Source: Flavobacteriaceae bacterium (GTDB taxonomy: Bacteria; Bacteroidota; Bacteroidia; Flavobacteriales; Weeksellaceae). Taken from it: a stretch of DNA of 64,000 bases. The translations under genes were made by a program, and so were the position numbers. Location of the stretch: positions 182,273 to 246,272 of the forward strand of contig PTET01000003.1 of NCBI GenBank assembly GCA_004359435.1, written 5' to 3'. Of the stretch, positions 7,581 to 14,698 are shown piece by piece. Under the pieces are notes generated by a model that worked only from the letters and a program-made list of their open reading frames with translations, made no database searches and was not told the DNA's origin. How positions within the stretch are numbered: the first letter of the stretch is position 1; each line of letters starts with the position of its first letter.

Positions 7581-10403
7581 ATGAGCAGCACAAAAAAACT
7601 CTTTCTTTTAGACGCCTATGCACTCATTTTTAGGGGATATTATGCCTTTATCAAAAACCCTAGAATCAATTCTAAAGGAGTAGATACTTCAGCCATTTTG
7701 GGCTTTACCAATAGTCTACTAGATGTAATCAAAAGAGAAAGACCCAGCCATTTGGCGGTGGTTTTTGATGTAGGAAAAGCTACCGTTAGAACCGATTATT
7801 TTGACCAATACAAAGCCAACCGAGATGCCACCCCAGAGGCCATTAAAATTGCTGTTCCTTATATTTTAACTTTACTTGAAGCCCTTGAAATACCTGCCCT
7901 TTCATGTCCAGGCTACGAGGCAGACGATGTAATTGGAACGCTAGCAAAAAAAGCCGAAAAAGAGAACTTTGAGGTGTTTATGATGACCCCCGACAAAGAC
8001 TTTGCCCAGCTGGTTAGCCAGAACATCAAAATGTACAAACCTGCAAAATCTGGTCAGGGAGCAGAAGTTTGGGGCGTAGAAGAGGTAAAAGAAAGATATG
8101 GTCTAAAAGACCCCATCCAAATGATTGACCTTCTTGGGATGATGGGCGACAGCGCAGACAACATTCCAGGGCTTCCCGGTGTGGGAGAAAAAACCGCACA
8201 AAAATTTATTGAAGAGTTTGGCTCAATGGAAAACCTTTTAGAAAACACCCACCTTGTAAAGGGTAAAATGAGGGAAAAAATTGAACAAAACAAAGAATTG
8301 GGTCTGCTATCCAAAAAGCTAGCCACCATCCTATTAGATGCCCCAATCGAACTGAATGAGCAGGAACTTGCTTTTGTAAAACCCAGTTTAGAAAAAGCAC
8401 AAATCCTTTTTGAAGAACTAGAATTCAGAAAACTCTTCGAAAATCTACAAAAAACCTATACTGGGGAACAAACAGAATCCCCAGAGGTAGAAAAAATCAT
8501 CCCAAAAGCAGTACTAGACGGATATTATCAAACCAACCTTTTTGATGCACCTTTAGAAATCCCCACAGAAAATAGTACGGTTAAGGAATCCAATAAAGAT
8601 TCGTTTTCATCTGGGCTACACCAAATCATTGACAATTCAACTGCACTAAAGCTTCTTTTAAAAAGCCTTTCGAATCAAAAAGAGATTTGTTTTTGGCCTC
8701 TTTTTAATGAAAACGAAAACTTCAACTCAACACTTTTGGGACTTGGGGTTTGTTACAAAGAAAATCTGGGATATTATCTAGACATATCTTCCATAGAAGC
8801 AGAGAAAGAAGGACTCTTTAGCGAATTACTCTGTGATTTTTTTGCACAAAACAACCAAACACTACTTGTTTCGCACGATGTAAAATCGCTACTCAAAGGC
8901 CTTGACTCTTTTGACATCAAAACCCAGAACCCTTGGTTCGATACCAAAATCTCGCACTATCTCATCAATCCAGACATGCGACATGATGTAGAATCTTTAA
9001 GCGTTATTTACCTCAATAAACCTTTAAGGTCGCTAGAAAGTTTACTAGGCAAAAACAAACCAATCTCAAAAGATTTATCTTTAGAACTGCAAAATGAAAT
9101 TAAACTTTTCGCCAGCCAAAAAACGAGCCTAATTTGGGGATTAAAACAACATTTTAATACAGAGCTAGAAAAAGAAGCGTTGCAATCACTCTTTGAAGAG
9201 ATCGAAATGCCACTGGTTAGCGTTCTGCATCATATGGAAAGTCAAGGCATTGCCATCAACACCCCATTTTTAGAAGATCTTTCAACAGAAATGGCTCAAA
9301 AAATAGAGATTTTAGAAGATCAAATTCAGACTTTGGCTGGAGAAAATTTCAACCTTAATTCTCCCAAACAACTCGGGGTAATCCTATTTGAAAAACTAAA
9401 ATTGGTAGAGAAACCAAAAAAAACCAAAACGGGACAGTATGCCACCTCGGAGGAAATTTTGCAAGACCTAAGCCAAGAACACGAAATTGTAAAATCGATT
9501 TTAGAATACAGACAGCTACAAAAATTAAAATCGACCTATGTAGATGCCTTGCCCAAACAAATTAACCCAAAAACGGGTAGAATCCATACCGATTACAGCC
9601 AAACCACTGCCGCCACAGGAAGGCTAGCCTCTAACAATCCTAACTTACAAAACATCCCCATCAGAAGTTTGGAAGGCCAAAAAGTTCGGGAAGCTTTCGT
9701 GCCAAGGGATGAAAACTTTGAGCTTTTTTCGGCAGATTATTCTCAGATCGAACTTAGACTCATCGCCCAAATGAGTGGAGATCCAAGCATGGTTGAAGCT
9801 TTTGTAAAAGGCCAAGACATTCATCTTTCTACCGCTGCCAAAGTTTTTGACATCCCATTAGAAAAAGTAACAAAACAGCAAAGATCTCAAGCCAAAACCG
9901 TAAATTTTGGAATTATTTATGGTGTTTCGGCCTTTGGTCTTAGCCAACAAACGGGACTTTCTAGAGGTGAAGCCAAAGAACTGATTGAAGCCTATTTTAA
10001 AAACTATCCAGGTCTTAGCCACTACATGGAAGACCAAAAAGAATTTGCCCGAGAAAACAGTTACGTTCAAACGCTGCTTGGCAGAAGAAGATACCTCAAA
10101 GACATTCACTCGGCCAATTCAATGGTTCGATCTCATGCAGAAAGAAATGCCATCAATGCGCCTGTACAAGGAACTGCTGCGGACATTATCAAAATTGCGA
10201 TGATTAAAATAGATAAGTTACTTGAAAACTACCAATCTAAAATGCTGCTTCAGGTACACGATGAGCTTGTTTTCGATCTACACAAAGACGAAAAAGAAGT
10301 TTTGATTCCACAAATTATCTCGCTCATGCAAAACGCCTATCCCACCGAAGTACCGTTACTTGTAGAGGCAAAAACCGGTAAAAACTGGCTGGCGGCACAC
10401 TAA
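7581..10403 (+). CDS. polA: DNA polymerase I, with degenerate proofreading domain
   Basis: Family A polymerase for Okazaki-fragment maturation and repair. Its 940 residues comprise a 5'-nuclease domain (1-290, with GYEADDVIGT, TPDKDFAQL and GDSADNIPGLPGVGEKTA), a 3'-5' exonuclease-fold domain (about 345-530) and the polymerase domain. Polymerase motifs are intact: motif A SADYSQIELR, motif B RSQAKTVNFGIIYG, motif C QVHDELVFD. In the exonuclease-fold domain the catalytic DxE of Exo I is replaced by FWPLFNENEN (371-380) and Exo II reads SHDVKSLL (431-438), so proofreading is probably absent. Thermus aquaticus Pol I is a known precedent. It starts 6 bases after the YjbR-like gene. Confidence 0.97.
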   Translation: MSSTKKLFLLDAYALIFRGYYAFIKNPRINSKGVDTSAILGFTNSLLDVIKRERPSHLAVVFDVGKATVRTDYFDQYKANRDATPEAIKIAVPYILTLLEALEIPALSCPGYEADDVIGTLAKKAEKENFEVFMMTPDKDFAQLVSQNIKMYKPAKSGQGAEVWGVEEVKERYGLKDPIQMIDLLGMMGDSADNIPGLPGVGEKTAQKFIEEFGSMENLLENTHLVKGKMREKIEQNKELGLLSKKLATILLDAPIELNEQELAFVKPSLEKAQILFEELEFRKLFENLQKTYTGEQTESPEVEKIIPKAVLDGYYQTNLFDAPLEIPTENSTVKESNKDSFSSGLHQIIDNSTALKLLLKSLSNQKEICFWPLFNENENFNSTLLGLGVCYKENLGYYLDISSIEAEKEGLFSELLCDFFAQNNQTLLVSHDVKSLLKGLDSFDIKTQNPWFDTKISHYLINPDMRHDVESLSVIYLNKPLRSLESLLGKNKPISKDLSLELQNEIKLFASQKTSLIWGLKQHFNTELEKEALQSLFEEIEMPLVSVLHHMESQGIAINTPFLEDLSTEMAQKIEILEDQIQTLAGENFNLNSPKQLGVILFEKLKLVEKPKKTKTGQYATSEEILQDLSQEHEIVKSILEYRQLQKLKSTYVDALPKQINPKTGRIHTDYSQTTAATGRLASNNPNLQNIPIRSLEGQKVREAFVPRDENFELFSADYSQIELRLIAQMSGDPSMVEAFVKGQDIHLSTAAKVFDIPLEKVTKQQRSQAKTVNFGIIYGVSAFGLSQQTGLSRGEAKELIEAYFKNYPGLSHYMEDQKEFARENSYVQTLLGRRRYLKDIHSANSMVRSHAERNAINAPVQGTAADIIKIAMIKIDKLLENYQSKMLLQVHDELVFDLHKDEKEVLIPQIISLMQNAYPTEVPLLVEAKTGKNWLAAH

Positions 10404-11586: not shown

Positions 11587-12548
11587 ATGGAACTACTTGT
11601 AATTTTAACCTTTGTGATGGGCTATTTGGCCATCACCCTAGAACAAAGCCTAAAAATTGACAAACTCATCCCAGCTATTACTATGATGGCTATAATGTGG
11701 ACTCTGGTTTCTTTTGGCGGATTAAACCTATTTGACATCGTACAAGGAGAAGGACTGGTTAAAATTGCAGAAAAACATGGGGAATCACCCGTGAGTCAAG
11801 TATTGCTTCATCATTTGGGAAAAACAGCCGAAATTTTAATCTTTCTAATCGGTGCGATGACCATTGTGGAAATCATCGATCAATTCAAAGGATTCTATGC
11901 CTTAAAAACATACATCAAAACCAAAAACAAAGTAAAACTACTTTGGGTGGTAGGTTTTATGGGATTCTTTCTTTCGTCTGTAATCGATAACCTAACGGCT
12001 ACCATAGTGCTTATTACCATCCTTAGAAAACTCGTTGAATCGCCCAAACTCAAAATGTGGTATGCCTCCCTTATTGTAATTGCCACCAATGCAGGTGGCT
12101 CATGGTCTCCCATTGGTGATGTAACCACCACTATGCTTTGGATTGCCCATAAAGTAGAAGTAGTTACACTCATCAAAAGTTTGTTTGTTCCTGCTTTTGC
12201 TTGTTTTGCCATACCCTTTGGCATTGCCTCTTTGCTCCCAGCCTTCAAAGGATATTTAGATTGGCCCACTCAGGAAGAAGAAAAACAAAACCCACATGGA
12301 CTTTCTATGCTTATTTTAGGAATAAGTATGATTATTTTTGTGCCCATTTTTAAAACCCTTACCCATCTTCCTCCTTACATCGGAATGATGATCTCTTTGG
12401 CTGTGGTGGCTATTGTGGCCGAAGGTTTAAGCAGAAGATCTTTTGATTTGTCTTCTGTTGAGACTCAAGAGAACGTTGTGCATAATCCTTTGCATCATTC
12501 ACTCTCTAGAATAGAAATGCCGAGCATTCTTTTCTTTTTTGGAATAAC
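11587..12548 (+). pseudogene. nhaD: Na+/H+ antiporter NhaD, C-terminus missing
   Basis: An inner-membrane sodium/proton antiporter of the NhaD type in the ion-transporter superfamily. The start is at 11587. Hydrophobic segments are seen through SSVIDNLTATIVLITILRKL and ATNAGGSWSPIGDVTTTMLW, the family's characteristic core. The natural sequence is recognisable to SRIEMPSILFFFGI (about residue 320). From there the frame reads through the start of exbB and stops at 12666. NhaD proteins are usually 430-460 residues, so roughly the last quarter is gone. Without those helices it should not transport. Confidence 0.85.
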
Positions 12549-13175
12549 ATTAGTATCTACGAGTTGGTATTTGGATCTGGTACTGCATCTGCTATTATAT
12601 GTGTGGCTTGTTTTATACTTTTACTTATCTCTTGCTACTTCTTTTTTGAAAGAATTTTCTCTTTAAACAGAGCGGCCAACCCAAACAAAAAATTCAATTC
12701 TGACATTCATGATTTGGTTTCAAAAGGCGAACTAGATAGAGCCATGGAACTTTGCGACAATACAGCAGCGGTAGAATCTTCTATGCTAAAAAAAGGAATC
12801 GCCAGAATTGGTAGACCTTTTGATGAGATCAATGTTTCGATGGAAAATGCAGCGGTACACGAACTTTCTAAATTGGAAAAAAACGTTGGATTCATTGCAA
12901 CTACCTCTGGAGCTGCGCCTATGCTTGGTTTCTTTGGAACAGTAATTGGGATGATCCAAGTGTTTAACGAGATTGCTAGCTCACCTGGTCAGGCAGAAGT
13001 AAAAGACCTAGCAGATGGTATTTTTACCGCGATGGGAACTACTGCCGTTGGACTTGCAGTGGGTATTCCAACCTATTTAATGTACAACTACTTGACGCTT
13101 AAAACAGGAGCTGTAACTGAGAAATTACAAAAGATCGCTTCAAATTTCATGGATTTAATCAACAAACCTAGCTAA
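12549..13175 (+). pseudogene. exbB: ExbB/TolQ proton-channel protein, first residues missing
   Basis: This is the MotA/TolQ/ExbB inner-membrane proton channel that, with ExbD, energises TonB for outer-membrane uptake. The frame resembles the family from ISIYELVFGSGTASA onward, followed by TM1 (IICVACFILLLISCYFFF) and the conserved TM2-TM3 core GAAPMLGFFGTVIGMI and AMGTTAVGLAVGIPTYL. About the first 10-20 residues and the ATG are missing; the first possible start in frame is TTG at 12564. Everything after TM1 is intact. It is followed 60 bases on by exbD. Confidence 0.85.
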
Positions 13176-13235
13176 GAACTTAGCTTAAAGTTTTGATTGC
13201 TTATCCTTTATTTCGAACCATCTCAACACATTCTC

Positions 13236-13547
13236 ATGAAATTACAATCTAAAAATAAAGTAAGTGCAGATTTCAACATGTCTTCTATGACAGACATTAT
13301 CTTTTTGCTGTTGATATTCTTTGTACTTACCTCCAATCCATCGGTGCAAAAAGCCTTGGATCTAAAACTTCCATCCTCAGATAATAACAACAACACGCAA
13401 GAGCCAATTTCTGTTTCTATAACCAAAGATGGATTGTTTTACTTAGACGAAACCAATATACCCAAAGAATCCCTTGAAGGCGCCTTAAAAAATCAATTGG
13501 TTGGCGTGGCAAGATGTTTAAGCAATTGCCTATGTTTCAAAACATAG
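13236..13547 (+). pseudogene. exbD: ExbD/TolR protein, C-terminus missing
   Basis: ExbD is the partner of ExbB with one TM helix and a periplasmic domain. The ATG at 13236 opens MKLQSKNKVSADFNMSSMTDIIFLLLIFFVL, with the essential membrane Asp in SMTDIIFLLL. The natural protein is followed to EGALKNQLVG (about residue 90 of an expected 130), then the frame reads through folC sequence and stops at 13547. In related Flavobacteria exbD is followed by a tonB gene and then folC. That tonB is absent here and would lie in the missing segment. Confidence 0.85.
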
Positions 13548-14698
13548 GCAATTTGGCTTTACGCCTAAAGCTAGACAATACCCTAGCCCTTTGCCAAAAG
13601 CTGGGAAATCCTCAAGAGAAACTTAAAATTATACACGTAGGTGGAACCAACGGCAAAGGAAGTACCTGTGCGCTTTTGGCTTCTTGTCTGAAAGAAAAAG
13701 GCTATAAAGTAGGGTTGTTTTCTTCTCCTCATCTCAAAGACTTTAGAGAGCGCATCAAAATAAACGGAAAAACATGCAGCAAAAAATATGTGGTAGAATT
13801 CGTTAGAGAAAACAAAGAGACTTTAGAAAATCTAAACCTTTCCTTTTTCGAGATGACTACCGCCATGGCGCTGGATTATTTCCACCAAAAAAAAGTAGAT
13901 TGGGTAATTCTAGAAGTAGGCTTGGGTGGAAGATTAGATGCTACCAACATTGTAAAACCCAAAGCCTCGGTAATTACCAATATTGGTTTAGACCACCAAA
14001 AAATACTTGGTGAAACCCTAGGAGAAATTGCAGCAGAAAAAGCGGGGATCATCAAACAAAATACCCCTGTTTTTGTAGGAGAAACCACAGCAGAAACCAA
14101 AAAGGTATTCAAAAAAATAGCCAAACAAAAAAATGCACCAATCTTTTGGGTAGAAAAATTTTCTAAAAAGGACTTTCAAAGCGATTTAAAAGGGTTATAC
14201 CAGCAAAAAAACATGCACTTGGCCTACACTGTTTTAACCCAGCTAAAAAAGGAACTAAAGCTAAAGGAAAAACACATCGAAAAAGGATTTTCTAGGGTGG
14301 TAAAAAACACTGGATTTATGGGTAGATGGCAAGTTTTAGGCAAAAAACCACTTACCATAGCAGATGTAGCCCACAATACCCACGGAATGCTCGAAATTAG
14401 CCGACAACTAAAAGAGATCAAATACAAAAAACTTCATTTGGTGCTAGGATTTGTAAATGACAAAAAGGTTGAGGAAATTATAGACTTGTTCCCCAAAAAT
14501 GCAGTTTTTCACTTTTGCCAACCCAATACGGAAAGAAAATTTCCGATCGAAAAACTCAAAGAAAAATACGAAAACAACCTGGACTGCCTTTTCTACAGCT
14601 CAGTCTCAGAAGCTTACCTTTCTGCCCAGAAAAAGGCAAACAATAAAGACCTTATTTTTATAGGAGGAAGCAATTATGTAGTGAGTGAAATTCTCTGA
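13514..14698 (+). CDS. folC: Folylpolyglutamate synthase/dihydrofolate synthase, first residues uncertain
   Basis: FolC adds glutamate to dihydropteroate and folates in the cytoplasm. The 394 residues start at an ATG within FKQLPMFQNIGN, normally residues 10-20 of the family, so the true start has been lost at the join with exbD. The rest is complete: P-loop HVGGTNGKGSTCALL, omega-loop region SSPHLKDFRERIKING, Mg site LGGRLDATN, and GLDHQKILGETLGEIAAEKAGI. Loss of about ten residues ahead of the Mur-ligase fold may or may not be tolerated. Confidence 0.88.
   Translation: MFKQLPMFQNIGNLALRLKLDNTLALCQKLGNPQEKLKIIHVGGTNGKGSTCALLASCLKEKGYKVGLFSSPHLKDFRERIKINGKTCSKKYVVEFVRENKETLENLNLSFFEMTTAMALDYFHQKKVDWVILEVGLGGRLDATNIVKPKASVITNIGLDHQKILGETLGEIAAEKAGIIKQNTPVFVGETTAETKKVFKKIAKQKNAPIFWVEKFSKKDFQSDLKGLYQQKNMHLAYTVLTQLKKELKLKEKHIEKGFSRVVKNTGFMGRWQVLGKKPLTIADVAHNTHGMLEISRQLKEIKYKKLHLVLGFVNDKKVEEIIDLFPKNAVFHFCQPNTERKFPIEKLKEKYENNLDCLFYSSVSEAYLSAQKKANNKDLIFIGGSNYVVSEIL

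Follow-up and report, generated by a model that had tools for sequence, protein, structure and literature searches.

The window (the whole stretch of 64,000 nucleotides that was analysed) encodes a DNA polymerase I, PolA, which is very probably an ordinary enzyme of this type with a 3'-5' exonuclease domain reduced to a catalytically dead scaffold. Other residues stand in this domain at the positions of the four metal-binding carboxylates and of the Exo III tyrosine. The dead-site reading is strongly supported by the sequence, a predicted fold, a shift in evolutionary rate and the state of the site in relatives. The features concerned are listed below; a domain is called broken if at least one of the four carboxylates is changed.

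7581–10403, + strand: polA, DNA polymerase I, 940 aa (ORF; NCBIfam TIGR00593 958 bits and NF004397 1048 bits, both above cut-off)
7596–8384, + strand: predicted 5'-3' exonuclease/flap endonuclease domain, residues 6–268 (Pfam PF02739 182 bits, PF01367 105 bits)
8610–9188, + strand: 3'-5' exonuclease domain without active site, residues 344–536, the stretch modelled alone (Pfam PF22619/PF01612 below cut-off; AlphaFold)
8694–8702, + strand: Exo I position, W372-P-L374 replacing D355-T-E357 (phmmer, MAFFT)
8877–8891, + strand: Exo II position, D433-V-K-S-L437 replacing N420-L-K-Y-D424 (phmmer, MAFFT)
8883–8885, + strand: K435 (Ec K422), kept in 42/42 broken exonuclease domains (alignment)
8940–8942, + strand: D454 (Ec D441), kept in 42/42 broken exonuclease domains (alignment)
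8979–8999, + strand: RHDVESL, conserved stretch, residues 467–473 (Ec R455-H456; alignment)
9108–9122, + strand: Exo III position, F510-A-S-Q-K514 replacing Y497-A-A-E-D501 (phmmer, MAFFT)
9267–10391, + strand: polymerase domain, residues 563–937, with catalytic D719, D894 and E895 intact (Pfam PF00476 534 bits)

Pfam, NCBIfam and the models place a FEN domain, a 3'-5' exonuclease-like domain and a family A polymerase in this order. Six of six polymerase residues (Ec D705, R754, K758, F762, D882 and E883) are kept, and the polymerase motifs are thus intact, as the first-pass annotation had stated. By its domain order and its polymerase residues the protein is a bacterial DNA polymerase I (PolA1). 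The gene is the only polA match in the genome (1.65 Mb, 83.5% complete) and is neighboured by genes for an aminotransferase, a YjbR protein and anmK; the nearest relatives of its product share 58% protein identity or less.

None of the residues of an active DEDDy site is present. The phmmer alignment to Klenow and the MAFFT alignments agree that Ec D355 corresponds to W372, E357 to L374, D424 to L437, Y497 to F510 and D501 to K514, so that the carboxylates are represented by W, L, L and K, and the Exo III tyrosine by F510. The earlier observation of an Exo I stretch lacking DxE was exact (FWPLFNENEN, residues 371–380, nt 8691–8720, with W372 and L374 at D355 and E357), and Exo II does read SHDVKSLL (residues 431–438, with L437 at D424). 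This second stretch aligns with Klenow without gaps, being anchored by K435, which is invariant in 21 sequences, and the Asp of SHDVKS falls on Ec N420, not on D424. One Asp was thought to survive near Exo III, in RHDVESL; this stretch aligns with Ec R455-H456, the true Exo III motif is FASQK, and the loss of the site is therefore complete. The region 8640–9000, to which the loss had been assigned, includes Exo I and Exo II and leaves Exo III (9108–9122) outside. The claim of lost proofreading itself has the strong support named at the outset, and the loss goes further than was first seen, the Asp attributed to Exo III having been misplaced. The Pfam models DNA_pol_A_exo1 (15.3 bits, cut-off 23.6) and DNA_polI_exo1 (16.9 bits, cut-off 27) score below threshold.

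A frameshift is excluded as the cause, since the reading frame of polA is one open stretch of 940 codons and no DxE occurs at the Exo I stretch in either other frame of the + strand. An artefact of assembly or contamination in a metagenome bin has a close to negligible probability. The genome is 83% complete, and gene-border anomalies lie about 2–3 kb downstream (12564–12666 and 13514–13547), which could speak for such an origin; against it stand the uninterrupted frame of a single polA, the change of three separate motifs and the ordinary identity (57–62%) of the flanking domains.

The exonuclease domain is of normal size, as the first-pass annotation had noted: 185 of the 193 residues of the model align with Klenow 324–524. 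The AlphaFold model of the domain alone (residues 344–536) has a pLDDT of 89.6, and that of the large fragment 84.9. The best structural match of the former is the exonuclease domain of Klenow (1kln; Z 24.2, rmsd 1.8, 185 residues), and its matches to Bst and M. smegmatis reach Z 17–18. The large-fragment model matches M. smegmatis Pol I, Bst, Klenow and Taq with Z 37–41. According to these models, the RNase H-like exonuclease fold of the window protein is retained without the metal site.

In Pol I of Bst (Bacillus/Geobacillus), Thermus aquaticus and M. smegmatis the 3'-5' exonuclease domain persists as a folded remnant, and the exonuclease of the M. smegmatis enzyme is inactive. The window protein resembles these enzymes, which are among its top large-fragment matches, in combining a polymerase with a folded exonuclease remnant. 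It differs from these losses, found in other phyla, in that its remnant taken alone is nearest to the active-type Klenow domain.

Broken sites recur among the relatives. The family sample comprised 148 genomes, all with a polA match, and the site was readable in 147 of them; the count leaves out one stretch (G003/L101) lacking most of the exonuclease domain. The site is broken in 12 of the 147, the window included. At positions D355-E357-D424-Y497-D501, five of the broken proteins read WLLFK (window), YSQAR, HLVFN, HFDIN and KMDYT, and the other seven EIDFN, ELDFN, EQDFE, EKDYD, DKDFD, DQDFD and HEDYD. Three proteins (window, L073 and L077) have none of the four carboxylates left. Where a change is single or conservative, as in HEDYD, activity is probably abolished, though this is less than certain. 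Genera g22, g23 and g26 contain intact and broken species side by side; the states seen in g26 include DEDYD, DEDFD, DQDFD and HEDYD. Two family loci share their motif stretches with Vaginella massiliensis and Chishuiella changwenlii, which points to Weeksellaceae.

Four further family proteins have Y497F as the sole change. They are L065 (g5), L139, L155, L162 (g26), and their carboxylates are intact; in L097 and L169 (genus g26) Y497F is accompanied by loss of E357. Y497F could mark an early stage in the decay of the site.

The order was sampled outside the family with 105 genomes, from which 7 without a polA match, 13 of genus g53 and four others (G184, G210, G229 and G243) were left out. 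Among the 81 proteins examined 28 are broken: 11/11 in family f6, 13/13 in f11, 1/1 in f12, 1/2 in f13 and 2/8 in f15, and 0/46 in nine other families. The order and family samples were selected by a tool and are non-random. The phylum sample of 41 genomes gave 39 proteins once the window's own genome and one family member already counted were removed; none is broken (0/39), 36 of them lying outside the order and three inside. Since all 39 are intact, the intact Pol I site is most likely ancestral. In an extra set of Bacteroidetes-type records 10 of 20 readable loci are broken. Eight of these (L032–L034, L036, L037, L040, L048 and L049) are neither Bacteroidales nor Prevotella; the broken L043 (Bacteroidales) and L058 (Prevotella) lie outside the family, order and phylum samples, and the loss is therefore not restricted to Flavobacteriales.

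Larger changes of the protein were also seen. L249 and L250 (f11) give no match in mid-protein (query about 290–527) in a frame that is open (879 codons), and have the most eroded exonuclease domains seen. In genus g53 of family f16 (13 genomes near 0.6 Mb, among them G173) the 5'-3' exonuclease part alone is matched (query about 1–295, open frame of about 300 codons), with no match to the Klenow part. In one f15 genome (G210:C1:559084-561878) the polA match is in seven pieces, two of them with internal stops, which indicates a pseudogene or poor sequence.

A tree of 145 rows was built without the exonuclease columns. It requires 15 changes of state, and removal of the eight outgroup rows leaves at least 13 within the order; in neither case can such counts alone separate gain from loss. 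Residue states on this tree suggest that Flavobacteriales lose Pol I proofreading repeatedly and to different degrees, with intermediate stages visible. The window is nested among intact family lineages in a 47-row group (SH-aLRT 96), and it falls in the family group of a 17-row set under a mixture model (bootstrap/SH-aLRT 97/92), where its branch is long and its exact sister is not fixed. The loss, which the first-pass annotation had proposed to locate by aligning related PolA proteins, is placed by the tree in the window's own lineage, because the family lineages around it are intact. Joint inheritance of the loss with the small-genome families f6 and f11 is rejected, as the window groups with intact family members on the trees. 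In an early tree lacking other families the window was basal in the family; a clade of broken proteins from the extra Bacteroidetes-type set stood next to it without including it.

The rate of change in the exonuclease domain was compared on a fixed topology with the motif columns removed, as the ratio of exonuclease to polymerase tip branches. The test drops 21 of 145 tips (polymerase tip of 0.03 or less) and treats related tips as independent. The median ratio is 2.79 in 34 broken tips vs 1.14 in 90 intact ones (one-sided Mann-Whitney p 1e-12), so that relative to the polymerase domain the exonuclease domain of broken proteins evolves about 2.4 times faster. The ratio of the window tip is 2.76. 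The flap/polymerase ratio does not differ (1.77 broken vs 1.65 intact, p 0.40; one row has no flap domain). Within the family alone, the difference between 9 broken and 37 intact tips is weaker (p 0.009), and three broken tips are not accelerated (L068 1.0, L099 1.2, L169 0.5). The second highest ratio of all tips, 5.5, belongs to an intact protein of another family (L266). The mean identity of the window protein to intact relatives is 30.6% in the exonuclease domain vs 61.7% in the polymerase domain, a ratio of 0.50 vs 0.87–0.93 in seven intact examples.

A column counted as conserved when 85% or more of the 103 intact rows shared its residue. Most of the exonuclease columns so defined are variable among the 42 broken rows, and only K422 and D441 are fixed in 42/42; Ala at Ec 445 (the family residue) is found in 40/42, and Y447 and L448 in 39/42 each. 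In a larger alignment the Lys-Asp pair is present in 50/50 broken and 196/197 intact proteins. In a set of Clostridia, Bacillaceae and others, which overlaps the Bacteroidetes rows, the Lys is kept in 18/19 and the Asp in 19/19 broken proteins. Many rows in these comparisons are kin. The pair may serve as a structural anchor, perhaps through a salt bridge; a literature search on Lys422 returned nothing relevant.

The absolute conservation of this pair bears on the question of whether the domain could still be active through other residues or a shifted motif. D433, D454 and D465 lie within the domain, and D454 is the Asp kept in 42/42 broken domains. Such activity is nevertheless highly improbable: D454 (Ec D441) is also found in 102/103 intact rows, and its aligned counterpart in M. 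smegmatis Pol I, itself without an exonuclease site, is an Asp too; FWPLF at the Exo I strand has no acidic residue; and the domain evolves fast.

Under the preferred reading of a dead scaffold, the domain would bind no metals and would not hydrolyse the primer end, so that Pol I would fill repair gaps and replace Okazaki primers without proofreading. Its errors would have to be dealt with by base selection, by mismatch repair and, after dissociation, by separate DEDDh exonucleases. A first catalytic substitution was presumably followed by decay of the remaining site under relaxed selection, and parts of the domain, above all the Lys-Asp pair, would be retained since the remainder of the enzyme depends on them for support. 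A more specific version has tentative standing, with a chance somewhat below even: the site in Flavobacteriales would have been lost repeatedly, probably still being lost, and the dead domain would be under separate, non-catalytic selection at K422-D441, from which a second job could follow. If true, this job, e.g., holding the polymerase or guiding DNA, would be open to study without catalysis.

The genome contains two DEDDh-type exonucleases of 253 and 421 residues with motifs intact by eye (VFDLETTG, FNSNRFD and HSASAD in the former) and two MutS-type genes, which together should limit the effect of the Pol I loss, including the locally raised mutation rate that the first-pass annotation had put forward as possible. 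A stand-alone PF01612 exonuclease that could act as a replacement was not found in this genome, and further exonucleases may be unseen because the genome is 83% complete.

Genome reduction with weak selection in small genomes could yield the loss as a by-product, which is possible but rather doubtful. With sizes adjusted for genomes whose completeness falls clearly short of 95%, the median genome is 1.73 Mb in 40 broken rows vs 2.80 Mb in 97 intact ones, the small-genome families f6 (11/11) and f11 (13/13) are wholly broken, and independent pairs that differ in size nearly always go the same way. However, among 10 independent pairs those that differ are too few for significance (median p 0.125–0.5 over three cut-offs, lowest 0.03), the small-genome families f8 (7/7) and f9 (4/4) are intact, and broken genomes of 2.4–3.1 Mb exist in genera g7, g11 and g26. 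The available text of the survey by Timinskas et al. (NAR 2026, PMC12926913) describes exonuclease inactivation as "largely phylum-specific" and unrelated to genome size, the latter also counting against this explanation.

The loss could also have been selected, if a Pol I without proofreading extends mismatches, bypasses damage and acts as a translesion polymerase, as has been proposed for H. pylori. In Pol I of this species (HP1470) the equivalents of D355, D424 and D501 are missing, the enzyme is biochemically without proofreading, and mismatch extension and lesion bypass are described; homologues of translesion polymerases are absent (PMC3121766, from the portion available). Like H. pylori Pol I, the window protein lacks the equivalents of these three residues and retains the domain, and its genome, incomplete at 83%, is likewise without a detected Y-family polymerase. 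Unlike H. pylori Pol I, it has E357 and Y497 replaced as well and belongs to another phylum. On the part of the source available, the H. pylori enzyme is by analogy the best experimental precedent for the window PolA.

This precedent, the missing Y-family gene and the recurrence of the loss (13 changes across the order) would agree with a selected translesion role. So would the counts outside the family, where Y-family genes are rarer in broken (16/28) than in intact genomes (48/53; Fisher p 0.001, kinship ignored). Kinship, differences in genome size and incompleteness (the window's genome is 83% complete) confound this order-level link, however, and it speaks against cooperation of a dead-exonuclease Pol I with Y-family enzymes. 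Within the family no link appears, a Y-family gene being present in 11/12 broken and 121/135 intact genomes. The selected role is judged unlikely, less probable than genome reduction. Coupling to Y-family polymerases was rejected as a separate candidate: the link is not consistent, the trend outside the family is one of joint absence, and the counts in and outside the family therefore give no sign of it.

An exonuclease-dead Pol I is ordinary in kind and already known from many bacteria. The DEDDy motif is reported to be disrupted in about half of PolA1 proteins (Timinskas et al., NAR 2026, PMC12926913, in its available part), and the window protein, a Pol I ortholog with DEDDy substituted, fits the definition given there of PolA1 with disrupted DEDDy. 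Unlike the phylum-specific picture in that text, the loss recurs here within a single order and a single family, and partial states are seen. Available passages of a paper on Cardinium (PMC12842512) describe endosymbionts from a different Bacteroidetes group that have lost part of polA. Literature searches turned up no title or abstract dealing specifically with loss of the Pol I exonuclease in Flavobacteriales, and the supplements of PMC12926913 may contain such rows.

What this analysis contributes is a graded series of decay within one order and the kept Lys-Asp pair. Species of the same genus differ and single-residue stages occur, which provides matched natural pairs for questions on Pol I proofreading. 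Such pairs could address the share of proofreading in mutation rate and in damage bypass, and the purpose for which the dead domain is still required.

Downstream of polA, an ORF for an NhaD-type antiporter (11587–12666) matches positions 5–310 of 420 of its model only, and its last part runs, in a different frame, into the beginning of a TolQ/ExbB ORF (12564–13175; model positions 10–215 of 216). The overlap at 12564–12666 suggests a deletion, a frameshift or an assembly junction where the two genes meet. A second anomaly of this type lies within 1 kb: the ExbD ORF (13197–13547) matches positions 3–84 of 128 only and shares its last stretch with the beginning of folC (13514–14698), a gene that matches its own model over nearly the full length.
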